64,000 nt of DNA. Origin: Deltaproteobacteria bacterium. GTDB lineage: Bacteria > Myxococcota_A > UBA796 > GCA-2862545. Shown one piece after another: positions 8,268 to 62,292 of this stretch. How positions within the stretch are numbered: position 1 is the first letter of the stretch; every line of letters starts with the position of its first letter. Below the pieces are notes generated by a model. The model was given only the letters and a program-made list of their open reading frames with translations, ran no database searches and had not been told where the DNA came from. Position numbers and translations under genes: made by a program. The stretch covers positions 62,001 to 126,000 of the forward strand of contig REDI01000028.1 in the NCBI GenBank assembly GCA_007693595.1. Reading direction: 5' to 3'.

Positions 8268-10001
8268 ATGACCGGAATCGAAGAAATCAAGGACCTGCCT
8301 CTCACCCAGCTCGACGATGACCAGTTCAAGGCCGCGTTCGACGACTACATGAGCGGCAAGGGCGTGCGTGAGCAGTCCGTCGTGCAGGGTAAGGTGCTCT
8401 CCATCGGGCCCGACTACGTCACCGTCGACATCAACTACAAGGCCGAAGGCATCGTCTCGACCCACGAGTTCAAGAACGAAGAGGGTGAGCTCACCATCTC
8501 GGTCGGCGACACGGTCGACGTCTACCTCGGCAACACCGACTCCGACGAAGGCGTGCTGAGCCTGTCCAAGGAGAAGGCCGACCTCATGAAGGCCTGGGAA
8601 GAGATCTCGAAGGCCGTCGAGCGCGACGAGGTCGTCACCGGCTCCATCGTCGCCCGCGTCAAGGGCGGGCTCTCGGTCAACATCGGCGTCAAGGCCTTCC
8701 TCCCCGGCTCGCAGGTCGATCTTCGTCCCGTCAAGAACCTCGACAAGCTGATCGGTCAGTCCTACGACTTCAAGATCATCAAGTTCAACAAGAAGCGCGG
8801 CAACATCGTGCTCTCGCGCCGCGTCCTGCTCGAGCAGGAGCGCGAAGAGAAGCGCGCCGAGACCGTCGAGCGCCTGCACGAGGGCTCGATCCTCACCGGC
8901 GTCGTCAAGAACATCACCGACTACGGTGCCTTCATCGATCTCGGCGGCATCGACGGCCTGCTGCACATCACCGACATGAGCTGGGGCCGCATCAACCATC
9001 CCAGCGAGATGTTCGAGGTCGGCCAGTCCGTCGAGATCAAGGTGCTCAAGTTCGATCGCGACAGCCAGCGCGTCAGCCTTGGCTACAAGCAGATCCGCCC
9101 CGACCCCTGGTCCGACGCCGACTTCAAGTACCCCGTCGGCGCCATCGTCCGCGGCACGGTGGTTTCGATCCCCGACTACGGCGCCTTCATCGAGCTCGAA
9201 GACGGCATCGAGGGCCTGGTCCATATCTCTGAGATGACCTGGAACAAGCGCATCAAGCACCCCTCCAAGCTCGTCGACGTCGGCGACACCATCGAGGCCA
9301 AGGTCTTGGGGATCGACGTCGAGAACAAGCGGATCAGCCTGGGCATGAAGCAGCTCGAAGAGAACCCCTGGGATCTCGTCGAGCAACAGTACCCGGTCGG
9401 CTCGCTCATCAAGGGCGAGGTCCGCAACATCACCGACTTCGGCGTCTTCGTCGCGGTCGACGAGGGCATCGACGGCTTGGTCCACATCTCAGACCTCTCT
9501 TGGAGCCAGCGCGTGCGTCACCCCTCCGAGGTCTACAAGAAGGGGGATATGGTCGAGGCCCGCGTACTCGCCATCGACAAAGAGAACGAGCGCTTCAGCC
9601 TGGGCATCAAGCAGCTCACCGACGACCCCTGGTACACGATCCACAGCCGCTACTTCCTCGGCCACGTGGTCGAGGGCCCGGTGGTTCACTGTGCGGACTT
9701 CGGTGTCTTCGTCGAGGTCGAAGACGGCATCGAAGGGTTGGTCCACGTCTCGGAGCTCAATATCGAAGGCGAGGACTGGCAGGACCAGTACCCGATCGGC
9801 AAGGTCCTCAAGGCGCAGGTCATCCACATCGACAACCACGATCGCAAGATCAGCCTGTCGGAGCGTGGCGCCGACGAAGCGGTCGAGGGCAAGCCCGGCG
9901 ACTTCATGGAAGCGCAGAGCAGCAGCAGCGCCCGCTTAGGCGACGTCATGGGCGATCTTGGCCGCAAGCTGGCCGAGAAGGAAGCCGACGACACCGTCTG
10001 A
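8268..10001 (+). CDS. rpsA: 30S ribosomal protein S1
   Basis: S1 binds single-stranded mRNA and helps the 30S subunit initiate translation. The 577-residue product has six S1 oligonucleotide-binding domains starting near residues 36, 121, 207, 292, 377 and 464. The first two are the divergent ribosome-docking domains, and the last four carry the clear G-x-V and YGAF/FGVF plus GLVHIS pattern. Two ATGs lie close together: the one at 8268 gives the S1 frame and has AGAAGG upstream, while the one at 8264 is out of frame. Codon use is strongly biased to C/G-ending codons such as AAG, ATC and GTC, as expected for a highly expressed gene. ihfB, often found after rpsA elsewhere, is absent. Confidence 0.97.
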   Translation: MTGIEEIKDLPLTQLDDDQFKAAFDDYMSGKGVREQSVVQGKVLSIGPDYVTVDINYKAEGIVSTHEFKNEEGELTISVGDTVDVYLGNTDSDEGVLSLSKEKADLMKAWEEISKAVERDEVVTGSIVARVKGGLSVNIGVKAFLPGSQVDLRPVKNLDKLIGQSYDFKIIKFNKKRGNIVLSRRVLLEQEREEKRAETVERLHEGSILTGVVKNITDYGAFIDLGGIDGLLHITDMSWGRINHPSEMFEVGQSVEIKVLKFDRDSQRVSLGYKQIRPDPWSDADFKYPVGAIVRGTVVSIPDYGAFIELEDGIEGLVHISEMTWNKRIKHPSKLVDVGDTIEAKVLGIDVENKRISLGMKQLEENPWDLVEQQYPVGSLIKGEVRNITDFGVFVAVDEGIDGLVHISDLSWSQRVRHPSEVYKKGDMVEARVLAIDKENERFSLGIKQLTDDPWYTIHSRYFLGHVVEGPVVHCADFGVFVEVEDGIEGLVHVSELNIEGEDWQDQYPIGKVLKAQVIHIDNHDRKISLSERGADEAVEGKPGDFMEAQSSSSARLGDVMGDLGRKLAEKEADDTV

Positions 10002-10525: not shown

Positions 10526-11926
10526 ATGAGCCCCAAAAAGACCCCGGCGCCGCCGGTCGTTCCGCGACGTTCCAGGGCGCGAAAGCTGCCCTCGACCCGA
10601 GCGCCCAACCCCAGCCGCGAATCTGGACCGGACCGTCCCCCCCCACGCTCCGCGCCCTCCACCGATGCCAGCCCCGCTCGGCTCGCGGCCGCTCGAGCCT
10701 TGCTCGAGGTCGAGGAGGGCGACCACCTCGACGACGCGCTGGCCCGACTGGCGCCTCGAACACCCCGAGATCGAGGGCTCGCGTGGTTCCTCGCCTTGGG
10801 CGTCCTCCAGCGTCGAGGGCAGGTCGACGCTGCCCTCCGCCCCTTCTTGCGTCAGCCCCTCGGGGGGCTGGATCCTGAGCTTCGGGTCAGCCTACGCCTG
10901 GGGACCTTCGAGAAGCTCTTCGGCCGTGCAGCGCCCCACGCGGTCGTCCATCAGGCCGTCGAAGTCGTGCGTGCGCTGGGGCTGGGCCGCGCCTCGGGCA
11001 TGGTCAACGCCGTCTTGCGTAAGGTGCGACCCGCCCAAGATCTCGCCCCCCACGAGGGCGCCGATCACCCGGCCTGGCTCTGGGCTCGCTGGGTCGAGCG
11101 CTACGGCGAGTCCGCCGCACGGGCGTGGTGCGAGCAGAACGGGCGACCGGCTCCTCTGGCCGTGGTGTTCCGCGGCCCCCAGGGACCGCTGGTGGAGCGC
11201 TGGGTGGCCGAAGGGCTCAAGGTGGAGCACGCCCTGGCCGCGGGAGAGCCCGTACCGGGCGCAGCGCTTCTCTTTGGGCACCAAGGCTCCATCACCGAGC
11301 TCCCCGGGTTCGATGAGGGGGCTTTCTGGGTTCAGGATCCCGCAGCGGTCGCGGTGGCGGACTTGGTCGGCGCCGCGCCAGGTCAGCGTGTCCTCGACGC
11401 CTGCGCCTCGCCGGGGGGCAAGACCCTCCGGCTGATCGAGGCCGGCGCGCACGTCACGGCGGTCGACCGCCCCGCTCGCCTCGGTCGCCTGCGCGAGAGC
11501 CTGGAGCGCACGAAAAGCCACGCCGAGGTCGTCGCCCACGACTGGTCGAAGGGTCCCGCCTCGCTGCCTCGCGACTTCGACGCGGTCCTCGTCGATGCTC
11601 CGTGCACCGGCCTCGGTACGGTTCGACGACATCCCGAGATCCGCTGGCGACGTCAGCCCTTGGACCTCATCCACGCCGCCCAAGAGCAACGCGAGATCCT
11701 CCGCGCTGCCGCACACCACGTCCGGCCAGGCGGGGTCCTGGTCTACGCGGTGTGCAGCGCCGAGCCCGAGGAGGGCGACGAGGTCGTACGCGCCTTTCTC
11801 AGGGATCATCCAGACTTCGAGGTCGAGGCCACCCTCAACACGGACCCGCCCTCCCACGAAGAAGACGCCCATGTCGGGGTACGACTCCGCCGCGCCGCCT
11901 CCGTCGAGCTCAAGGCCCGCGCATGA
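10526..11926 (+). CDS. rsmB: 16S rRNA (cytosine-C5) methyltransferase, RsmB-like
   Basis: An SAM-dependent enzyme that methylates a cytosine of 16S rRNA (C967 in E. coli). The basic, Pro-rich first 50 residues are unusual. A NusB-like RNA-binding domain follows (about 52-185), then the Rossmann methyltransferase. Motif I is DACASPGGKTLRL near residue 291. Motif IV, with the PC pair, is VLVDAPCTGLGTVRRHPE near 352. The catalytic-Cys motif VYAVCSAEPEE near 409 differs slightly from the usual YSTCS. Length (466) is near the family norm of about 430. It overlaps mutS by 4 bp (ATGA), indicating translational coupling. A related RsmF-type specificity cannot be excluded, but the NusB domain favours RsmB. 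Confidence 0.88.
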   Translation: MSPKKTPAPPVVPRRSRARKLPSTRAPNPSRESGPDRPPPRSAPSTDASPARLAAARALLEVEEGDHLDDALARLAPRTPRDRGLAWFLALGVLQRRGQVDAALRPFLRQPLGGLDPELRVSLRLGTFEKLFGRAAPHAVVHQAVEVVRALGLGRASGMVNAVLRKVRPAQDLAPHEGADHPAWLWARWVERYGESAARAWCEQNGRPAPLAVVFRGPQGPLVERWVAEGLKVEHALAAGEPVPGAALLFGHQGSITELPGFDEGAFWVQDPAAVAVADLVGAAPGQRVLDACASPGGKTLRLIEAGAHVTAVDRPARLGRLRESLERTKSHAEVVAHDWSKGPASLPRDFDAVLVDAPCTGLGTVRRHPEIRWRRQPLDLIHAAQEQREILRAAAHHVRPGGVLVYAVCSAEPEEGDEVVRAFLRDHPDFEVEATLNTDPPSHEEDAHVGVRLRRAASVELKARA

Positions 11927-14499
11927 CTCCCATGTTCGAGCAATACCACGGCCTAAAGAAGGCCCATCCCGACGCGATCCTCTTCTTTCGCATGGGGGAC
12001 TTCTACGAGGTCTTCTTCGACGATGCGAAGCTCTGCGCCCGAGTGCTCGACATCACCCTGACCTCGCGGAGCAAGAGCGACGACGATCCCATCCCTATGG
12101 CGGGAGTGCCCCACCACGCCGCCACCGCCTACGTGCAGCGGCTCGTCGACGAGGGCTACCGAGTCGCGATCGCCGAGCAAGTCGAAGACCCCGCGACCTC
12201 CAAGGGCCTCGTTCGCCGCGAGGTGGTGCGCGTCGCGACCCCTGGAGTGGTGCTCGATCCCGGCGCTCTCGAGTCGCGGGAGCCCAACCACATGGCCGCG
12301 GTGAGCTGGGACGAGCAGGGCCTCGGAGTCGCGGTCCTCGACCCGAGCACCGGGGATCTTCGCTGTACGCAGGTCGAGACTCTGGCCCAGGCCATCGCCG
12401 AGCTGCATCGCTTCGAGCCCCGCGAGGCCCTGCTGCACCCGAGCCTGGTGGACGATCCCGAGCTGCTCGGGGCCCTCGCCCGACACCGCGCCCTCCACAG
12501 CCGCCTCGACGACGCCCAATGGGCCCCAAGGGCGGCCCTGGAGGCCCTCGGATCGCTCGTACCGGACTCCGCGACATCCGACCCGGCCCTGACCGCCGCC
12601 GGAGCCCTGGTCGCCTATGCCCGTCAGGTCTCGGGCGGCCGCCTCGACAATCTTCACGCCCTGCATCGCTACACGACCGCAGGCTTCATGGTGCTCGACG
12701 ACACCACCCGCCGAAACCTCGAGATCACGAGGACCTTGATCGGGGGACGCCGGAAGGGGAGCCTGCTGGGGCTGCTCGATCGGTGCGCGACGGGCATGGG
12801 GTCGCGCGCCCTGAAGAACTGGCTTGCCTTTCCGCTGCTCGATCGCGGAGCGATCGCCGCTCGTCAGCGGGGCATCGGAGCGCTTCTGAGCGCTGGGCTC
12901 GAGAGGGAGTCCCTGCGCACCTCGCTGCGTCAGGTCGCGGACATCGAGCGCATCCTCGCCCGAGTTGCCCAAGGTACGGCACACGCACGGGACCTGTCCG
13001 CGTTGCGCCGCTCGCTGCTCGCGGTGCCCGATCTGTGCGCCGCCTTGTCCTCCCTGATCGATCTGCAGGACCGACTCCCGCGCGATCCCTGCCAAGATCT
13101 CGGGCGCGAGTTGGATCGACAGCTGGTCGACGATCCCCCGATCTCCCTCACCGAGGGGGGCCTGATCCGACGTGGGGTCCACCCCGAGCTCGACGAAGTG
13201 ACCGAGCTCTCGCAGCATGGACTCGGTGCGATCGACGCCCTGGAAGAGCGAGAGCGGGAGCTGACCGGGATCAGCTCCCTCAAGATCCGAAGCAATAAGG
13301 TCTTCGGCTACTACATCGAGGTGACCCGAGCCAATCTTCACCGCGTGCCCGAAGACCGCTACAAGCGCAAGCAGACCCTCTCGAACGGCGAGCGCTACAT
13401 CACCTACGAGCTCAAAGAGCTCGAAGAGAAGGTCCTTGGGGCCGATGAGCGGCGCAAGCAGCTAGAATACGGTCTCTTTCAAGACCTCCGCGCCCAGGTG
13501 GCCGACCACATGCCCCGGCTCCTCGCCCTCTCTCGGGTGCTCGCCGAGCTCGACGTCGTCGCGGCCCTCGCCGAGGTCGCCGATCGCTGGGGCTGGTGTG
13601 CCCCGACGGTGGTCGACGACCCGGTCCTTCGACTGCGCGCCGCACGTCACCCGGTCGTCGAGGCGAACCTCACCCAGGATCCCTTCGTTCCCAACGACTG
13701 CGATCTCGACACCGAAGATCGACGCCTCATCGTGCTCACCGGCCCCAACATGTCGGGCAAGTCCACCATCATGCGCCAAGTCGCGATCTGCACGCTGCTG
13801 GCGCAGATCGGAAGTTTTGTCCCTGCCGAAGCGGCGACCATCGGGCTGTGCGACCGCGTCTTCACCCGCGTGGGAGCCGCCGACGACCTGGCCCGGGGCC
13901 AGTCGACCTTCATGGTCGAGATGAGCGAGACCGCCGCGATCCTGCACGGCGCCACCCCTCGAAGCCTGGTCATTCTCGACGAGATCGGTCGGGGCACGTC
14001 GACCTACGACGGGCTGGCCATCGCGTGGGCCGTGGCCGAGGACCTCGCCAGCCGGATCGGATGCCGAGCCCTCTTCGCCACCCATTACCACGAGCTGTGC
14101 GAGCTCGCGCAGATCCTACCGGGCGTGGTGAACCAGTCGGTCGCGGTGAGCGAGTGGGGCGACGAGATCGTTTTTCTGCGCACCTTGCGCGAGGGGGGCG
14201 CGAGCCGGAGCTACGGGATCCAGTGCGCGAGGCTCGCGGGCCTGCCCGACCCCACCATCGAGCGCGCGCGTGCGCTCCTGACCCGCTTCGAGCGGAACGC
14301 CCTGCGCAACGACCGGCAGCAGCTCTCGCTCTTCGGCAGCCACCGGCCCGAGCCGAGTCCGGTCCGAAGCGAGCCCGCACCCCAGTCGGCTGATCCCGTG
14401 CGGGAGCTGCTCCAAGGCCTCGATCCCGACACCCTCACGCCCCGCGCAGCCCTCGATCTGCTCTATCAGCTCCGAACCCTGGCTCAGGGCAGCCCATGA
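11923..14499 (+). CDS. mutS: DNA mismatch repair protein MutS
   Basis: Recognises mispairs and small loops and starts mismatch repair. The frame is open further upstream inside rsmB, but the ATG overlapping the rsmB stop gives a normal 858-residue protein whose N-terminus aligns with MutS. The mismatch wedge is FYE at residues 27-29. The lever and clamp domains follow, including the SLKIRSNKVFGYYIEVTRAN signature near 455. The ATPase has Walker A GPNMSGKST near 607 and Walker B LVILDEIGRGTSTYDG near 683. A C-terminal Pro-rich linker leads to a short helix-turn-helix tail. mutL is not in the window. The 4-bp overlap with xerC downstream suggests one transcript from rsmB to xerC. Confidence 0.97.
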   Translation: MTPMFEQYHGLKKAHPDAILFFRMGDFYEVFFDDAKLCARVLDITLTSRSKSDDDPIPMAGVPHHAATAYVQRLVDEGYRVAIAEQVEDPATSKGLVRREVVRVATPGVVLDPGALESREPNHMAAVSWDEQGLGVAVLDPSTGDLRCTQVETLAQAIAELHRFEPREALLHPSLVDDPELLGALARHRALHSRLDDAQWAPRAALEALGSLVPDSATSDPALTAAGALVAYARQVSGGRLDNLHALHRYTTAGFMVLDDTTRRNLEITRTLIGGRRKGSLLGLLDRCATGMGSRALKNWLAFPLLDRGAIAARQRGIGALLSAGLERESLRTSLRQVADIERILARVAQGTAHARDLSALRRSLLAVPDLCAALSSLIDLQDRLPRDPCQDLGRELDRQLVDDPPISLTEGGLIRRGVHPELDEVTELSQHGLGAIDALEERERELTGISSLKIRSNKVFGYYIEVTRANLHRVPEDRYKRKQTLSNGERYITYELKELEEKVLGADERRKQLEYGLFQDLRAQVADHMPRLLALSRVLAELDVVAALAEVADRWGWCAPTVVDDPVLRLRAARHPVVEANLTQDPFVPNDCDLDTEDRRLIVLTGPNMSGKSTIMRQVAICTLLAQIGSFVPAEAATIGLCDRVFTRVGAADDLARGQSTFMVEMSETAAILHGATPRSLVILDEIGRGTSTYDGLAIAWAVAEDLASRIGCRALFATHYHELCELAQILPGVVNQSVAVSEWGDEIVFLRTLREGGASRSYGIQCARLAGLPDPTIERARALLTRFERNALRNDRQQLSLFGSHRPEPSPVRSEPAPQSADPVRELLQGLDPDTLTPRAALDLLYQLRTLAQGSP

Positions 14500-15425
14500 G
14501 CGAGATCGCCCCGGATCTGGAGCTCGCGCTCGAGGGCTTCCGAGGCTGGCTTCGGATCGACCGGGGCTTGTCGGCCCACACGGTCGCGGCCTATCTCGCC
14601 GACGCGCGCCGCTTCGCCGCCTGGCTCACCGCCCGAGGGCACCGTGACCTCCTCGAGGTCGACCACCCCGACATCGTCGCCTACCTCGTCGACCTCACCG
14701 ACGAAGGCCTCGGCCCCAGGAGCCGCAACCGCGCCCGTACAACCTTGCGCCAGTGGTTTCGCTACGCTCAGGATCACGGCTTGCGTCAGGCCGAAGATCC
14801 CACCCAGCTCACCACGGCCGCGCGGACCGTCAAGCCGCTGCCCACCGTGTTGACCACCGAGCAGATCGAGGCACTCCTGAAGGCCCCTGCGGATCCCGGC
14901 CCCCTCGGCCAGCGCGATCGCGCCATGATCCAGGTCATCTACAGTGCGGGCCTGCGGGTGAGCGAGCTGATCAGCCTGTCGCGCAGGAGCGTGGACCTCA
15001 TCGAGGGCCTGATCCAAGTCCGTGGCAAGGGCAGCAAGGACCGCCTCGTGCCGCTAGGGGACCGCGCGGTGTCCGAGATCGTCCGCTACGTTCGACACGT
15101 TCGGCCCAAGCACGACCCCGACATGCGGTGCGGAGTGCTCTTCGTCAGCAAGCGCGGCCAGGGCATGACCCGCCAGAACTTCTGGGATCGCCTCCGACGA
15201 CACGCCCGCGCCGCCGGGATCCGCGGCAAGGTGAGCCCTCACGTCCTGCGCCACAGCTTCGCCACACACCTGCTCGAGCACGGGGCGGATCTTCGCGCGG
15301 TTCAAGCCATGCTCGGTCACGCAGACATCTCGACCACCGAGATCTACACCCACGTCGCGCGCGCCCGCCTCCAGGCGATCCATCAGGCCGCTCACCCCCG
15401 CGGGGGAGGGGATGTGCAGGGTTAG
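14496..15425 (+). CDS. xerC: tyrosine recombinase XerC/XerD
   Basis: A 309-residue site-specific recombinase that resolves chromosome dimers at dif, normally with a partner Xer and FtsK. The N-terminal SAM-like core-binding domain (about 10-100) has GLSAHTVAAYLADARRFAAWL. The catalytic domain has Arg154 (SAGLRVSEL), the HVLRHSFATHLLEHG motif with His249/Arg252, His275 (LGHADIS) and the nucleophile Tyr284 (EIYTHV). The compact length and lack of adjacent phage genes mark it as the housekeeping enzyme rather than an integrase. XerC versus XerD cannot be settled from the sequence alone. Its stop overlaps the stop of the opposing transporter gene. A dif-like sequence lies about 4.4 kb downstream. 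Confidence 0.9.
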   Translation: MSEIAPDLELALEGFRGWLRIDRGLSAHTVAAYLADARRFAAWLTARGHRDLLEVDHPDIVAYLVDLTDEGLGPRSRNRARTTLRQWFRYAQDHGLRQAEDPTQLTTAARTVKPLPTVLTTEQIEALLKAPADPGPLGQRDRAMIQVIYSAGLRVSELISLSRRSVDLIEGLIQVRGKGSKDRLVPLGDRAVSEIVRYVRHVRPKHDPDMRCGVLFVSKRGQGMTRQNFWDRLRRHARAAGIRGKVSPHVLRHSFATHLLEHGADLRAVQAMLGHADISTTEIYTHVARARLQAIHQAAHPRGGGDVQG

Positions 15426-16528: not shown

Positions 16529-16709
16529 GGGGGAGAGACTCCGAGTCCCTGTGAGGACGACGCAGGTGTTTTAGCCTGACCGCCCCGGACAGAAACCGAG
16601 GGCACGGCGGACGTCGCGCGATCGTTGGGAAGCCTCGAAGGTCGTTACGGGATCGTCACAGAGCTGAGGGCCAGATGTTGCAGAAGGGCGTGAGCGCGCG
16701 ACGGAGGCG

Positions 16710-16738
16710 TTGCCGCGACGGGCTCTGGGTTGTAGATC
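16710..16738 (+). promoter_or_regulatory. candidate sigma-70-like promoter for nadA
   Basis: TTGCCG at 16710-16715 and TAGATC at 16733-16738 are separated by exactly 17 bp, and the nadA ATG begins 26 bp after the -10-like box. The hexamers match the consensus at only 4/6 and 3/6 positions, so this is weak and could be chance in a GC-rich gap. Confidence 0.3.
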
Positions 16739-16764
16739 ATCGACTCCCGCTTCCCGAGGCGCCC

Positions 16765-17724
<960 letters not shown>

Positions 17725-17736
17725 ACGCAGCCTGCC

Positions 17737-19020
17737 TCAGCGACCGAGCCAAGCGGCGACGCCTCGATCCAGGCGCCGTACCAGCTCGGGAATATCCTCG
17801 ACGCTCACCGAGCAGAAGGCGATGCGAAGGGCAGGGGGGCTCGCGCTCGCGACCAAGCCGAGGTCGTGATCGGCGATGAGGTACTGACGCAAGGCGTCGA
17901 GGTCCTCCACCCCGTCCACCCCGATTAGAGCGAAGACGCCCCCGTTGAAGGGGTAGGGATGGAGCGCCGGATTGTCCAGGGCCTCGAGGGCCTGCCGAAG
18001 CACCTGATACCGCTCGGAGAGCATGGCGTGAGCCGCCGCGACCTCGTCTTCGAGCGTAGGTTGTTGCAAGGCATGGAGCACCGCCGCCTGACCGGGTCCG
18101 GTTGGGGAGCCCACGCTGCTCCGCGCGAGCCCCGCGAGCTTGCTCTCGAGGGCGGCCGCGGCGGGGTGCTCAGGATCGAGCGCAGCGGTGAGAAAGCCAA
18201 CCCGGCCCGGAAAGAAGAGCAGCTCCTTGGTGGCCCCGTCGAGCTTGAAGAGGGCGTGGCGCGAGGGCTCGATCGCCGGCGCGAGCTCCCAAAACAAGGA
18301 GCGTTGAAGGGCGGAGGGCTCGTAGATCATGCCCGCATAGGCATCGTCCACGATGATCACGAGCGGGTGCGGGTGCGCCGAGAGTCGCTCGACGATCTGC
18401 CGGGCTTGCGCCGGATCGGGCGTGTAGCCCGTGGGGTTGTGCGGGTAGTTTAAGAGCACAACGGACGGCTCCTCGAGGGAGGAGAGCGCCCGATCGAGCG
18501 GATCGATAGACCAGCGCTGCTCCACGAAGACATCGTAGGAAACCAGCCGACCACCCCGACGAAAGGAGAAGATCTGGTCGTAGTTGCCCCAGCGAGGTCG
18601 GGGCACGACCACCGGACGCCCCGGCTCCACGAAGAGATCCGCCAGGAAAGAGAGGCCCTGGCTCAGCCCCATCAGAAAGAAAGGGGTGGTCGTGAGCGCT
18701 TCGCAGCCCCCCGAGAGCGAGCGCTGCCGGTGAGCCCAGGCCTGCCGAAGCGAAAGATGCCCTGAAGGCGGGCTGTAAAGGTGACTCATGCGGGGGTCGA
18801 GCCCCCCTAGCGCCGCCTCGATCGAGGGGAGCGGGACCGGCGCCCCCGCGCCGTCGGTCACCTGCCCGATCGTGCCATTGTACCGTGTTCCCTTGGCCTG
18901 AGCGGACTGAAAGGGGATCCCCCGCGGAAAGATCGCGCGCCTCCCGAGGTCCGAGAGGGTGGCCCAAGCTCCGGGCAAACCGCTTTGAAAGTCGGCGTTC
19001 AGCTCGTCGAGTGCGGTCAT
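17737..19020 (-). CDS. class I/II PLP-dependent aminotransferase
   Basis: A 427-residue fold-type I aminotransferase. The start is placed at the internal ATG with AGGAGG 5 bp upstream, which drops 13 residues from the longest open frame. MSHLYSPPSGHLSLRQAWAHR is the N-terminal substrate arm, VVLLNYPHNPTGYTPDP contains the conserved NPTG, VIIVDDAYAGMIYE the cofactor Asp/Tyr, and GATKELLFFPGRVGF the PLP Lys (about residue 265) with the nearby Arg. The family includes aspartate, aromatic and alanine aminotransferases. The long insertion around residue 285 (SKLAGLARSSVGSPTGPGQ) suggests a subgroup whose substrate I cannot name. No pathway neighbour decides it. Confidence 0.87.
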   Translation of the reverse strand: MTALDELNADFQSGLPGAWATLSDLGRRAIFPRGIPFQSAQAKGTRYNGTIGQVTDGAGAPVPLPSIEAALGGLDPRMSHLYSPPSGHLSLRQAWAHRQRSLSGGCEALTTTPFFLMGLSQGLSFLADLFVEPGRPVVVPRPRWGNYDQIFSFRRGGRLVSYDVFVEQRWSIDPLDRALSSLEEPSVVLLNYPHNPTGYTPDPAQARQIVERLSAHPHPLVIIVDDAYAGMIYEPSALQRSLFWELAPAIEPSRHALFKLDGATKELLFFPGRVGFLTAALDPEHPAAAALESKLAGLARSSVGSPTGPGQAAVLHALQQPTLEDEVAAAHAMLSERYQVLRQALEALDNPALHPYPFNGGVFALIGVDGVEDLDALRQYLIADHDLGLVASASPPALRIAFCSVSVEDIPELVRRLDRGVAAWLGR

Positions 19021-19191
19021 GAGATCCTCCTGCAGGCCGGCCGTTCGCAGCCCCCGCATTCCTCACCGAATCCGGCGCGCCCTGCAAGCCCGCAGGCCCG
19101 TCTAAGCTTGTAAGGACTCGTGGCAGGCTCCCGCTGGGTCAGCTACCTTGGGACCGACACGGCGTGGTCCCCCTGGGCACGGAGCGAGGCG

Positions 19192-19554
19192 ATGAAGCGG
19201 TTTTGGGACAGACTAGAAGGCGAGCACAAGGGGCTCCTCGGCGTCGTGGCCTTCATGTGGGTCGCCCAGTTCGTGCTCCTCGTATCCCCGATCGACCCGA
19301 TCCCCGATCTGATCCCCGTCTTGGGCTACGTCGACGATCTGTTGCGCCTCATCGCCACGGTGGCGCTCACCGTCTACGCCTACCGGGCTATCGGCTACAA
19401 GTCCTTCGCGGAGCTCGTGCCCCAGGCGCTCCGCCCCTCGGCCGAGGAGCTCAGCAACCCGCTCTCGGGCACCATCTACGAAGAGACGACCCCCGAGCAC
19501 GAAGACATCCCGGGCTATCGACCGTTGAGCCTCTCCGAGCTGCGCTCGCTTTAA
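19192..19554 (+). CDS. YkvA-family (DUF1232) membrane protein
   Basis: A 120-residue protein whose core VSPIDPIPDLIPVLGYVDDLLRL is the DUF1232/YkvA hallmark, a short amphipathic motif containing PIDxxPDxxPxxGxxDD. One or two hydrophobic segments (about 15-35 and 49-66) surround it. The family is widespread and without an established biochemical role. The ATG at 19192 is chosen because GGAGCGAGG stands just upstream. A GTG at 19120 in the same frame would add 24 residues lacking conservation. The C-terminal 40 residues are acidic and probably cytoplasmic. It stands alone, with a divergent neighbour to the left and the gene-poor dif-like region to the right. Confidence 0.8.
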   Translation: MKRFWDRLEGEHKGLLGVVAFMWVAQFVLLVSPIDPIPDLIPVLGYVDDLLRLIATVALTVYAYRAIGYKSFAELVPQALRPSAEELSNPLSGTIYEETTPEHEDIPGYRPLSLSELRSL

Positions 19555-19900
19555 GAGCGCGGGCTCGTACGCCGCCCACGATCCACTCCGGGCTGCCGTT
19601 CACAGCCCCCGACCGGATCGAGACGCCTCGGTTCCGCCCGCACGGCAGAGATCGGGTCGGCCACGCCCACGATGAGGCCCGCCGGTTCGCGGTCCTCTTC
19701 ACGTTCGCGAGGACCCCGCGTTCGGGTCCGACGAAACCCATCCGGGCGCCCGTGCCGCCAGGGGAGACGCCGGACTCCGGGATGGCTCATCCCTGAGACC
19801 GACCGTAATCCTTTACTTGACATAATATACCTTATCAGACATTCCCGATCCGCACCGAATCCACCGGCGTGCGGCCTCCCGCTCTGCTACCCTCGGCCCC
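19555..19900. other. 346-bp intergenic region, the largest gene-free gap
   Basis: No reading frame here resembles a protein and no tRNA-like cloverleaf is apparent. Most of it is GC-rich. The exception is an abrupt AT-rich island at about 19807-19842, described separately as a dif-like site. The last 16 bp before the next gene contain TGCTACCCT (19885-19893), which fits an extended -10 element (TGnTAnnnT) located so that transcription would start almost at the ATG at 19901. No matching -35 box is obvious. Confidence 0.6.
19815..19842 (-). other. dif: candidate dif chromosome-dimer resolution site
   Basis: Read on the minus strand, this 28-bp segment divides as 11 + 6 + 11. The left arm ends GATAA, the centre is GGTATA, and the right arm is TTATGTCAAGT. 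From memory of the E. coli dif site, whose centre is TGTATA and XerD arm TTATGTTAAAT, the centre plus right arm match at 14 of 17 positions and the whole site at 19 of 28. The inner ATAA/TTAT palindrome around a 6-bp centre is the hallmark of Xer sites. The site is intergenic, AT-rich in GC-rich surroundings, and about 4.4 kb from xerC. A chance AT-rich promoter is the main alternative. Confidence 0.6.
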
Positions 19901-21091
19901 ATGAGCCTCTCGCGCCTCGGACGGATCAGCCTACTCACCGCGTGCTGTGTTTCGTGCAGCTCCGGCTTCGCCGTGGGCGTGCCTCACGTCGTGCTCGAGA
20001 CCGAGCGCCTCGATCTGACGGAGCTCCCCGTCGGGCTACAGACCCGAACGCCCATCGGCATCCACAACACGGGAACCGCCTCGGTGCGGGTCCGGGTCGA
20101 GCTCGAGGCCCCCCTGCGGGTCGCGGTCGACGCCTTCACCTTGGCCGCCGATGGGCGCTCGAACATCAACCTCCTCGTCCGTCCTGAGAGCTTCGAGCCC
20201 TTCGAGGGCACCGTGCGAGTGCGCGCCGGCGGCGTCGTGCGCACCATCCAGGTCAGCGGCACCGTCGCCACCGACTTCGATGGCGACGGCTTCGATGCCC
20301 TAGGCGCCGGCGGCGACGACTGCGACGACTTCCGGGCCGACGTCTATCCGGGCGCCCCCGAGGTCTGCGACGGGGTCGACAACAACTGTGATGGCGAGAT
20401 CGACCTCGACGCGATCGACGCCACCACCTCCTTCCGCGACGCCGACGGTGACAGCTACGGCGACCCCTCCATCTCTGAGCGCTCCTGCCTTCAGCCCATC
20501 GGCTACGTCCTCAACAGTGACGACTGCGATGACTCCCGCGCCGACATCAACCCCTCCATGGTCGAGATCACCGACGGCCTGGATCAGAACTGCAACGGCC
20601 TCATCGATGAGCACCTCCTGGTTCCTCGCGCCCTCGCCATCACCGAAGTCCACCTGGGAGATGGCGACGTGCCCGGCTACCTCGAGATCCGAGGGCGATC
20701 TCCCTCGAGGCTCTACCTGGAGCACGTCGCGCTGGCTCACGACGATCAGGTGCTCTCTTTGCCTCCGATCACCCTGGATCGTGGGCAAATCCGGGTGCTG
20801 TGTGGCGTCGAGGATGTCGCAGAGATCGAGGGGCTCCCGTGCGACGGCCCCCTCCCGGGCCCCCTCGGGCCCGACCTTCAGATCTCCATGACAGCCTTGA
20901 GCACCTTCGAGGCCTTGGATCTCGCCCCACTAGCGCTCGATGTCGGCCGCTCGGCGGAGCTGGCGCCCGAGGCCGCGGCCGACGGTCGGAGCGGCGATCC
21001 CGCGGACTGGTGCCCCTCGACGCGACCCCTGGCCGACTCCTCCTTCGGCACCCCCTGGACCCTGGAGGGTCACTGCGAGGGTGAGCCTTGA
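19901..21091 (+). CDS. MopE-like metal-binding-repeat lipoprotein
   Basis: A 396-residue exported protein. The first 20 residues form a lipoprotein-type signal (SLLTACCVSC) with candidate lipobox Cys at 15, 16 or 19. Residues 30-125 look like a beta-sandwich (ASH/NPL-like, with GIHNTGTASVRVRVEL). Two copies of the MopE/'Stigma' metal-binding motif follow: DCDDFRADVYPGAPEVCDG then NNCDGEID near 146-170, and DCDDSRADINPSMVEITDG then QNCNGLID near 207-232, separated by FRDADGDSYG. These Asp/Cys-rich repeats are common in Myxococcota surface proteins and are related to the copper-binding protein MopE. The C-terminal half resembles a lamin-tail-like beta domain. Metal identity is unknown. The next gene starts 4 bp inside its end. 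Confidence 0.8.
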   Translation: MSLSRLGRISLLTACCVSCSSGFAVGVPHVVLETERLDLTELPVGLQTRTPIGIHNTGTASVRVRVELEAPLRVAVDAFTLAADGRSNINLLVRPESFEPFEGTVRVRAGGVVRTIQVSGTVATDFDGDGFDALGAGGDDCDDFRADVYPGAPEVCDGVDNNCDGEIDLDAIDATTSFRDADGDSYGDPSISERSCLQPIGYVLNSDDCDDSRADINPSMVEITDGLDQNCNGLIDEHLLVPRALAITEVHLGDGDVPGYLEIRGRSPSRLYLEHVALAHDDQVLSLPPITLDRGQIRVLCGVEDVAEIEGLPCDGPLPGPLGPDLQISMTALSTFEALDLAPLALDVGRSAELAPEAAADGRSGDPADWCPSTRPLADSSFGTPWTLEGHCEGEP

Positions 21092-21564
21092 GCCCCAAGC
21101 GGGACTGGAACGACGAGCAACCCGTGTTCCTGATCCCCCGGATCCCCGGCACAGGGCTGCTCGCCGGGGTGGGCTTGTCGCTGGTCGCCCTGATGGTCGT
21201 GTCGGCCCTGATGCGATCCCAGACCGAGTCGGACGACGCCCCTCCCCCCAGCCAGGTCGCGGCTCCGGTGGCCGAGGGGGCGCTCACGCTACACCTGAGC
21301 GGCCCAGACGAGCAGATCGATCTCGCCCTGCAAGCCCTCGATCCCGATCCCCTCGGGGCCCAGATGTGGCGATTGACGAGCCCGGGCGCCGCCTTCCTCT
21401 TGCTTCGTGAGCCCGACGGCCTCTGGCTGCATGACCTGACGGCGGCCGATGTCGAGGAGGTCGAGCGGATCTTGGCGCAAGCGGGCGCGAACCTGGAGAT
21501 CGAGCTCAGCGGTCCCGACCCCAGCTCTTCGATGAAGGGTTCGCCAGACGGAAACGCGAGGTAG
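21088..21564 (+). CDS. small single-span membrane protein, unknown function
   Basis: A 158-residue protein beginning at a TTG that overlaps the upstream stop (TTGA), so it is probably translationally coupled to the MopE-like gene. Residues 1-20 are polar and a single hydrophobic helix spans about 22-42 (GTGLLAGVGLSLVALMVVSA). The remainder, probably periplasmic, is acidic and includes ALTLHLSGPDEQIDLALQAL and LTAADVEEVERILAQAGANLE. I recognise no family. Its last 59 bp overlap the 3' end of the opposing propeller gene, so both coding sequences share DNA there. The overlap and the weak ribosome site leave some doubt about its exact extent. Confidence 0.6.
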   Translation: MSPKRDWNDEQPVFLIPRIPGTGLLAGVGLSLVALMVVSALMRSQTESDDAPPPSQVAAPVAEGALTLHLSGPDEQIDLALQALDPDPLGAQMWRLTSPGAAFLLLREPDGLWLHDLTAADVEEVERILAQAGANLEIELSGPDPSSSMKGSPDGNAR

Positions 21565-22762
21565 GCCTCTGCTTGTGGGGCGCCACCGTCGATTCTTGCG
21601 GGGAGAGCATGGCGTAGATGCGCCCCGAGTTGCTCACCACCAGCATCTGACGACCCTCGACGACCGGAGGCGCGGCGACGCCCTGGAGCTTGAAGTCTTC
21701 GCGCCAGGTCCAGAGGGTCTCGCCTACGTCTGGATCGACCAAGGCGAGCACCCCCAAGCCTGAACCGAGGATCAAGCCGGCCTCGGTCGACACGGGACTC
21801 GTCAGAGCCCCTCCCCGGCCGCTGTTCCACGACCAGAGCAGGTTCCCATCTTGGGCATCGAAGGCTCGAAGGACCCCATCGGTGCCCGGATGGAGCAGGG
21901 CGAGCGTCTCGTCGGGGAGCTCGTGAAAGATCGGGGCGCTGGCCGAGCCGGCGTCGAACCGCCAACGAACGGTGGCGTCCTCAGCCTCGAGGGCGACGAG
22001 CGGCCCGGTGTAGCCCGAGGCATAGACCAGTCCTCCGCGCGCCGCGACGGGACCCACGATGTCCGGGTACTGACCTTCACCGACCGTGGCCTCCCAGAGT
22101 CGATCGCCGCCGTCTTTGTCGAGCGCGACCACCACGCCATCCGAGAAGCCGAGCAGGAGCACCGAGCCCGCCGAGACCGGAGCGGGGGCGGCGTAGAGGG
22201 TGAGCTCGGACTTTCGCTCAAGATCCTTCTTTCGTCGATACTGCCAGGCCTGCTCCCCGGAGTTCCTGTCGAGGGCATAGACTAGGTCGTCGACGTCCCG
22301 CAGCACGAGCAGGTCGCCGACCTCGGTGGGGCGCGTCGGCAGGGGGGCTGCACCCTGGTGCTTCCAGACGAGCTCTCCTTCCAGGGTGTAGCACCACGTC
22401 GCGCCGGTCGTGTCCGTGAACCAGACGCGCGTGGCATCGAGCACCGGCTCGGCCTCGACGGCCCCTTCGGCTGGAAACGTCTGCACGACACTGCCGTCGC
22501 GACGGCTGATGACGAAGAGCTCACGGCTCCCCGCAGTACCGAGGTAGGCATGCTCACCCACGATCACGGGACGTGAACGCTCCGCATGGCTCGCCGCGTT
22601 GACCTTCGGGCCCGGAAGGGGTCGCCCCCACTGCATGACGGGAGGCGCCCGGAAGGCGCCTGGGTACAGGGCGGGGGGAACCTGCTCAGAGGGCCCGTCG
22701 ATCGTGCGTACCGTGCGCGGCTCGGGCTGAGCCCAGGCGATCAGGGAGAGAAAGACAATCAC
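21506..22762 (-). CDS. PQQ-type beta-propeller protein, BamB-like
   Basis: A 418-residue exported protein with a short signal (VFLSLIAWAQ) and no lipobox, followed by repeated propeller blades containing AxDxxxGxxxW-type turns: ALDRNSGEQAWQY, ALDKDGGDRLWEA, ALEAEDATVRWRF, AFDAQDGNLLWSW and LVDPDVGETLWTW. PQQ/YVTN repeats form seven- or eight-bladed propellers. In E. coli the gene beside yfgM is bamB, a propeller lipoprotein of the outer-membrane barrel assembly machine. Here the gene overlaps a YfgM-like gene by 4 bp, so a BamB-like role is plausible, although the missing lipid-anchor Cys is a difference. Other propeller functions remain possible. Confidence 0.75.
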   Translation of the reverse strand: MIVFLSLIAWAQPEPRTVRTIDGPSEQVPPALYPGAFRAPPVMQWGRPLPGPKVNAASHAERSRPVIVGEHAYLGTAGSRELFVISRRDGSVVQTFPAEGAVEAEPVLDATRVWFTDTTGATWCYTLEGELVWKHQGAAPLPTRPTEVGDLLVLRDVDDLVYALDRNSGEQAWQYRRKKDLERKSELTLYAAPAPVSAGSVLLLGFSDGVVVALDKDGGDRLWEATVGEGQYPDIVGPVAARGGLVYASGYTGPLVALEAEDATVRWRFDAGSASAPIFHELPDETLALLHPGTDGVLRAFDAQDGNLLWSWNSGRGGALTSPVSTEAGLILGSGLGVLALVDPDVGETLWTWREDFKLQGVAAPPVVEGRQMLVVSNSGRIYAMLSPQESTVAPHKQRPTSRFRLANPSSKSWGRDR

Positions 22763-61368: not shown

Positions 61369-62292
61369 TCAGCGCACGACCACGTCGACAAAGTCCAGCA
61401 TGAGCGGATCGAGCTCCGCACCAGCCGCTCGCAAGGAGGACAGGCTCAACACCACGTCGACCTCTTCGGGATCGACGATCTCTCCGCGCAGGTAGCGCCC
61501 CTTATCGAGCACCTCACGCACGATGCTCGCCGCTTGTCGGCCCGTGCCTCGGGCATCGGGGACTGTCGCGAACATGCCCCCTGCGCGCACCATGTTCTCG
61601 GTCTCGACCACCAGCGGTCGGCGGGTGCGACGCGTCTCTTCGACGACGAAGCGATAGGTCGGCCTGTCGATCACCGCCCGATCGGGTTGTAGCCAGAAGG
61701 CGTCGACCTTGGGGCCGAGGGTGCGGAGGGCCTGACGAACATCGCGCGGATTGCGCACCCGCTGGACCTCGAGCTCGATGCCGAGGAGCTTGGCGGCCGA
61801 CTCCATGGCCTCGATGCGCGCGTCGGGGATCGAGGGTCCCCTCAGCACCCCGATCTTCTTATAGTCTGGAAAGTAGTTATGAAACTCGCTCACCGCAAGC
61901 TCGGGCCCTGCCACCATCGAGACCCCCGCAGTGCGGGTTCCTTCGATGCCGAACCGCGTCGGAGCGAGGACCGAGGTGTAGACCAGCGGCACCTTGGGCA
62001 GCTGTGTTCGAGCGGTCCAAGCAGCCTTTGCACCCAAGGCGAAGATGACCTCGGGGGGGTCCTTGGCGAGGCGTTTCGCGAGGCCCATCGCGTCGGACTC
62101 GCGGCCACGAAGGTTGTAGACGGTGGCAGGCTCGCCCAGGGCTTCGAGGAACGTCTCGACCGGGTCGGTATACGGCGAGAGATCGTCGGAGACGATCACC
62201 ACCACCCGACTCCCCCAGGCTGGGGTCACGACTGCGACCGAGACGAGGACGGTGACGATCGACAGGAGCAGCGTTCGGACGGCTCGGCTCAT
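61369..62292 (-). CDS. ABC-type substrate-binding protein (DUF534/TrpX-like)
   Basis: A 307-residue periplasmic binding protein with signal LLLSIVTVLVSVAVVTPAWG. The PF04392-type core has VVVIVSDDLSPYTDPVETFLEAL, then PEVIFALGAKAAWTARTQLPKVPLVYTSVLAP, KKIGVLRGPSIPDARIEAMESAAKLLGIELEV and PLVVETENMVRAGGMFATVPDARGTGRQAA. Members of this family include tryptophan-binding TrpX and many orphans linked to two-component or TonB systems. No ABC permease or ATPase is adjacent. It lies 10 bp downstream of the Ser/Thr kinase gene, suggesting a ligand sensor for that kinase, and converges on the TonB receptor. Confidence 0.85.
   Translation of the reverse strand: MSRAVRTLLLSIVTVLVSVAVVTPAWGSRVVVIVSDDLSPYTDPVETFLEALGEPATVYNLRGRESDAMGLAKRLAKDPPEVIFALGAKAAWTARTQLPKVPLVYTSVLAPTRFGIEGTRTAGVSMVAGPELAVSEFHNYFPDYKKIGVLRGPSIPDARIEAMESAAKLLGIELEVQRVRNPRDVRQALRTLGPKVDAFWLQPDRAVIDRPTYRFVVEETRRTRRPLVVETENMVRAGGMFATVPDARGTGRQAASIVREVLDKGRYLRGEIVDPEEVDVVLSLSSLRAAGAELDPLMLDFVDVVVR

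Follow-up and report, generated by a model that had tools for sequence, protein, structure and literature searches.

An almost certain chromosomal dif site near xerD in a deltaproteobacterial genome

Genes and layout of the 19815–19842 locus

The window, meaning the whole 64,000-nucleotide stretch analysed, is part of a 179.7 kb contig within a 4.92 Mb assembly of 97 contigs. In it, a block of rpsA-, rsmB-, mutS- and xerD-type genes is followed by a 28 bp sequence that is almost certainly the dif site of the chromosome. Such a site is where XerC and XerD resolve joined sister chromosomes ahead of division. The features of the locus were as follows (window coordinates):

8268–10001, plus strand: rpsA-like gene with six S1 domains, in the rpsA-rsmB-mutS-xerD block
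10526–11926, plus strand: rsmB-like gene of the same block
11602–14499, plus strand: mutS (Pfam MutS I–V), ancestral upstream neighbour of xerD; the true start probably lies after 11602
14496–15425, plus strand: xerD, tyrosine recombinase of 309 aa (profile scores and best solved structure)
16675–17724, plus strand: nadA (Pfam NadA and synteny), in this family located in the interval from xerD to dif
17737–19059, minus strand: class I/II aminotransferase, in family f1 the neighbour of dif on the side of xerD
17829–17958, plus strand: nearest KOPS-like octamers left of dif (at 17829 and 17951), directed at dif
19120–19554, plus strand: gene for a small DUF1232 protein, closest to dif on the xerD side
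19815–19842, minus strand: almost certain dif site, 28 bp, ATGTCTGATAA-GGTATA-TTATGTCAAGT (uniqueness, conservation and KOPS convergence)
19815–19825, minus strand: right arm TTATGTCAAGT, predicted to bind XerD, on the side facing xerD; best-conserved part in relatives
19826–19831, minus strand: central hexamer GGTATA, a 6 bp spacer that differs among relatives
19832–19842, minus strand: left arm ATGTCTGATAA, predicted to bind XerC (alignment to E. coli and delta-proteobacterial dif; PMC2731167)
19901–21091, plus strand: gene for a MopE-type metal-binding-repeat protein (Pfam PF11617), closest to dif on the other side
21240–21816, minus strand: nearest KOPS-like octamers right of dif (at 21240 and 21809), directed at dif
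21506–22762, minus strand: gene for a BamB-like PQQ beta-propeller; no other neighbour of dif is as constant in the order

Three genes (nadA, the aminotransferase and the DUF1232 gene) separate xerD from the site. The site itself is intergenic, the DUF1232 and MopE-type genes being about 346 bp apart, and is AT-rich, both as expected of dif. The AT-rich island described in the sequence-only reading is real, as 28-mers with at most 8 G/C occurred at two places in the window only. The other place was a patch at 61853–61886 (28-mer starts at about 61853–61859).

The sequence, strand and 11+6+11 layout given in that reading all agreed with the letters of the window, and its count of identity to E. 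coli dif was exact: 19 of 28 positions over the whole site and 14 of 17 over the centre and right arm. Across 60 windows of 64 kb simulated with a first-order Markov model, the best identity was 15–18, so 19 of 28 stands above every simulated window. A dif-like pattern matched once in the window and never in 100 shuffles. The 11+6+11 layout, the ATAA/TTAT inner dyad and the conserved XerD arm are those of a dif site. Published delta-proteobacterial dif sites have 19–23 of 28 positions in common with this one (PMC2731167). Among them, the Myxococcus and Anaeromyxobacter sites share the TCYGATAA left arm and 19 of 28 positions, but differ in the centre and the outer positions. The arms of dif and the MopE-type gene hint, very tentatively, at a Myxococcota-like affiliation; the 80 loci matched with the XerD alignment came from a mixture of proteobacteria and other groups.

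The product of 14496–15425 scored 327.7 bits against the XerD profile TIGR02225 (2 bits below the cut-off of 329.6) and 284.6 bits against the XerC profile TIGR02224, a margin of 43 bits for XerD. Its best solved structure was E. coli XerD (1a0p, E 1.3e-66). The catalytic residues R154, K178, H249, R252, H275 and Y284 were invariant in eight relatives. PF00589 had two matches only in the genome, namely xerD and a second Xer-type gene on contig C11, which scored 272.8 bits as XerC (well below the cut-off) and 242.9 bits as XerD. The sequence-only reading had placed xerC about 4.4 kb from the site. The distance holds (4.39 kb), but the name does not: by profile and structure the gene scores best as XerD and is therefore xerD, and the XerC-like gene is on C11. 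The genome also encodes one FtsK-gamma domain, whose GYNRAARI helix agrees with the solved E. coli and Pseudomonas domains. Thus XerC, XerD and FtsK-gamma, the proteins of a dif system, are all encoded.

Conservation of the site and convergence of KOPS octamers

When the 23-base core was searched in the whole 4.92 Mb genome with up to three mismatches, the single match was perfect and lay at the site. Among 58 relatives, 37 had exactly one match, and the reversed control had none. A looser pattern matched in 60 of 71 genomes of the class, 58 of them once, again with no match for the reversed control; the 11 genomes lacking a match are at least partly explained by incompleteness or divergence. 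In a set of 284 genomes from the phylum, a looser pattern matched in 221. One copy per chromosome, kept among relatives, is the pattern of dif. Within the order, the 28 bp core was kept and the flanks were unrelated, as predicted for a protein-bound site and not for a coding or promoter feature. The central hexamer varied among relatives (TGTATA, GCGATA, GGGATA, GATATA and others), the behaviour to be expected of a dif centre. These sites give a dif consensus for the order of roughly ACKTCYGATAANNTATATTATGTMAAGT.

The E. coli FtsK-orienting octamer GGGNAGGG converged on the site from both sides. It pointed toward dif 20 times and away 4 times in the window, 50 and 15 times in the whole contig, and 61 and 10 times in 200 kb of a relative (G002). 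Of 145 octamers surrounding dif in 17 relatives, mostly no more than 10 kb from it, 125 pointed toward the site and 20 away (p about 1e-19, assuming independent sites). The cumulative maximum in the window's contig fell between 79951 and 83240, with dif at 81815 (contig coordinates), confining the sign change to a 3.3 kb interval that includes dif. In G002 it fell between 92577 and 95256, with dif at 92840 (coordinates of the 200 kb stretch). Control words in which C or T replaced A pointed toward dif in 53% (GGGNCGGG) and 40% (GGGNTGGG) of cases in the 17 relatives. Two other control words gave 53% (GGCGGG) and 74% (GGGNGGGG), and the latter value shows that some polarity reaches other G-rich words. 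The B. subtilis-type word GAGAAGGG and the lactococcal GAAGAAG had no significant polarity as orienting words.

GC skew in the 179.7 kb contig was weak and gene-dependent and had no flip at dif. In G002 contig C17 (about 350 kb), the KOPS switch was at dif and the skew changed sign about 77 kb away, so the end points of replication and of segregation may differ. The E. coli KOPS word is thus a usable terminus marker in this order where GC skew fails, and the FtsK convergence point is fixed for the order.

Of the checks on the proposed dif, the FtsK-orienting motif was decisive. Together with the uniqueness of the site and its conservation in relatives, KOPS polarity upholds the dif identification, and it strongly supports the proposal that the window holds the terminus in the sense of the FtsK convergence region. 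With high confidence, we identify the 28-mer as the dif of the chromosome, belonging to a canonical XerC/XerD system with two recombinases, and attribute the nearness of xerD to common descent. Binding, cleavage and recombination at the 28-mer are predicted from sequence. XerC would bind the left arm and XerD the right. Septal FtsK would be guided along the DNA by the octamers directed at dif from both sides, and on arrival its gamma domain would activate XerD, which would exchange the first strands across the 6 bp centre. XerC would then complete the exchange, turning a chromosome dimer into two monomers.

Two other identities for the 28-mer were weighed. An attachment site of a prophage or mobile element, or a dif module of plasmid type, in place of the chromosomal dif is very improbable; dif is a known target of Xer-exploiting elements (PMC2731167; PMC5357621), but the single copy per genome, the household genes as flanks, the class-wide conservation and the KOPS switch point all stand against this origin. 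Still more remote is a chance resemblance to dif in a promoter or other regulatory element serving the MopE-type gene. The site does lie about 58 bp upstream of the start codon at 19901 and contains TTGACA (plus strand TTGACAT), but its core is kept beside quite different genes in relatives, at one copy per genome, and this conservation independent of the downstream gene rules out the promoter reading. Neither a sigma-70 promoter nor a terminator was found at the 28-mer. The chromosomal dif remains the identity best matched by these observations.

Linkage of xerD and dif among relatives

In 13 genomes dif lay downstream of xerD on the same contig, with the XerD arm always facing the xerD end. 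Gaps were counted from the end of the xerD match and differ by a few bases from those counted from the stop codon. In family f1 the gaps were 4.4 kb (the genome studied here, G000), 4.4 kb (G020), 4.9 kb (G013) and 1.8 kb (G005); in f2, 21.9 kb (G054). The remaining eight relatives, in three families, had dif 4–724 bp past xerD in one orientation: f3, 724 bp (G022) and 265 bp (G031); f4, 17 bp (G046), 83 bp (G048), 148 bp (G042) and 4 bp (G036); and f6, 58 bp (G034) and 166 bp (G037). In G036 the TAA stop codon of xerD is inside dif, and in G027 the contig carrying dif begins in the last part of xerD, with 36 bp between gene and site.

Most f1 and f2 genomes, and two f4 genomes that belong to a single genus, have lost the linkage. 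In 27 of the remaining entries, xerD cannot be within 5 kb of dif in the ancestral orientation. These include G011, where the contig breaks between the aminotransferase and dif and the expected genes are on either side. Four further entries were left out of the linkage call on account of contig breaks. Single- or long-contig genomes of other classes had xerD and dif, by their listed positions, roughly 1.1–1.7 Mb apart (G141, G191 and G077) or 592 kb apart (G157). When the surroundings of xerD were searched loosely for dif in the outgroup families f7, f8 and f9 and in two other-class genomes, no match was found.

The gene order on the xerD side extends beyond the order. The rpsA-rsmB-mutS-xerD block was present in an f7 genome (G058), and mutS was near xerD in an f8 genome (G064), in G157 and in the Deltaproteobacteria MAG GWB2_55_19; the block is therefore older than the order. 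Within the order, G031 carried rpsA-rsmB-mutS-xerD-dif-bamB-like in one stretch. In G002, rpsA-rsmB-mutS-nadA and xerD were on one contig, and the aminotransferase, dif and the BamB-like gene on another. As a control for retention, genes within 5 kb of dif were counted at 26 loci: xerD was found at 11, the BamB-like gene at 17 and the aminotransferase at nine. The BamB-like gene has no known Xer role. As the xerD linkage was kept no better than the BamB-like linkage, common descent of gene order suffices to explain it. Most likely, the ancestor of the order had mutS-xerD-dif-(MopE)-bamB-like, an arrangement later loosened by insertions (to 4.4 kb in the window) or broken. The linkage of xerD and dif is genuine; it is probably ancestral in the order, and a special function for it is improbable. 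The claim that a recombinase gene is unusually near its target stands for xerD, with adjacency recurring in relatives and no hint that the pair was specially retained.

The recombinase genes of XerCD systems described so far lie scattered (PMC2731167), and a survey found xerC tending to be nearer dif and xerD nearer the origin (PMC3025954). The locus is otherwise like the canonical XerC/XerD-dif and FtsK/KOPS systems of E. coli, Pseudomonas and delta-proteobacteria: a 28 bp site of 11+6+11 with a conserved XerD arm, single-copy, AT-rich and intergenic, with genes for XerC, XerD and FtsK-gamma and converging GGGNAGGG octamers. It differs in that xerD is 4.4 kb off here and abuts dif in relatives, an arrangement for which no description in a two-recombinase system was found in the open-licence papers searched. 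Published descriptions of a recombinase gene linked to its site concern the single-recombinase systems XerS/difSL of streptococci and lactococci and XerH/difH of epsilon-proteobacteria (PMC2731167; PMC5357621; PMC9765430). These share the gene beside the site, a likeness clearest in f3, f4 and f6, but they work with one recombinase, and difSL measures 31 bp around an 11 bp centre; here there are two recombinases, and the dif is canonical at 28 bp. A single-recombinase Xer module was rejected, as the genome has both a XerD-like and a XerC-like recombinase. Adjacency of gene and site, as in such modules, was found in the f3, f4 and f6 relatives; in the window, 4.4 kb and intervening genes separate the two.

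It is also conceivable, though we consider it unlikely, that the conserved 28-mer is dif and that the closeness of xerD marks a selected functional module, as in XerS/difSL and XerH/difH. Recombinase and site would then be kept together so that XerD and its arm could co-evolve or be transferred jointly, or so that Xer proteins bound at dif could regulate xerD. In this unlikely reading, the physical two-recombinase module of the order would have a function such as coupling xerD expression to dif occupancy or ensuring that recombinase and arm are inherited together. The short gaps in the eight f3, f4 and f6 genomes and in G027, with the XerD arm toward xerD, the stop codon within dif in G036, and a like adjacency of about 72 bp in the distant GWB2_55_19 would fit such a module. 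Against it, the linkage is gone from most f1 and f2 genomes and from the two f4 genomes of one genus, xerD is near dif at fewer loci than the unrelated BamB-like gene, and mutS and xerD are linked outside the order with no dif nearby. Common descent therefore remains the preferred account. The adjacency of xerD and dif in several families offers a natural test for function of recombinase-site linkage.

Other dif-like sites

In GWB2_55_19 (L096), a canonical dif at 10949 lay about 72 bp past the xerD stop codon in the orientation seen in the order, which is possibly an independent case of adjacency. In the Acidobacteria MAG AS06rmzACSIP_118 (L077), a dif-like sequence at 13261, ACTTCTGATAAGATATCTTATGTCAACT, lay 2.4 kb past xerD in reversed orientation. 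In G053 the BamB-linked site was on C137, and a weaker second dif-like site was found at C17:57316, 8.5 kb from xerD, which may be a relic, contamination or chance.

Most relatives had one dif-like site; in genomes of the same phylum, ten were found in G114, six in G212 and three in G109. An f15 genome, also of this phylum (G167), contained about 119 occurrences of a repeat of about 95 bp, in which a dif-like core, ATTGCGCATAAGAGACATTATGTTAACT, is followed by a possible hairpin, GGCC...GGGCCTTCATCG. Most siblings of this genome had one dif. The lone site with a different centre at C265:4807 in G167 may be its true dif. The repeats (e.g., L211, L212, L213 and L219–L248) were spaced 0.3–2 kb apart, in one orientation in several contigs and in mixed orientations in others, an array that resembles an integron or a set of dif modules.
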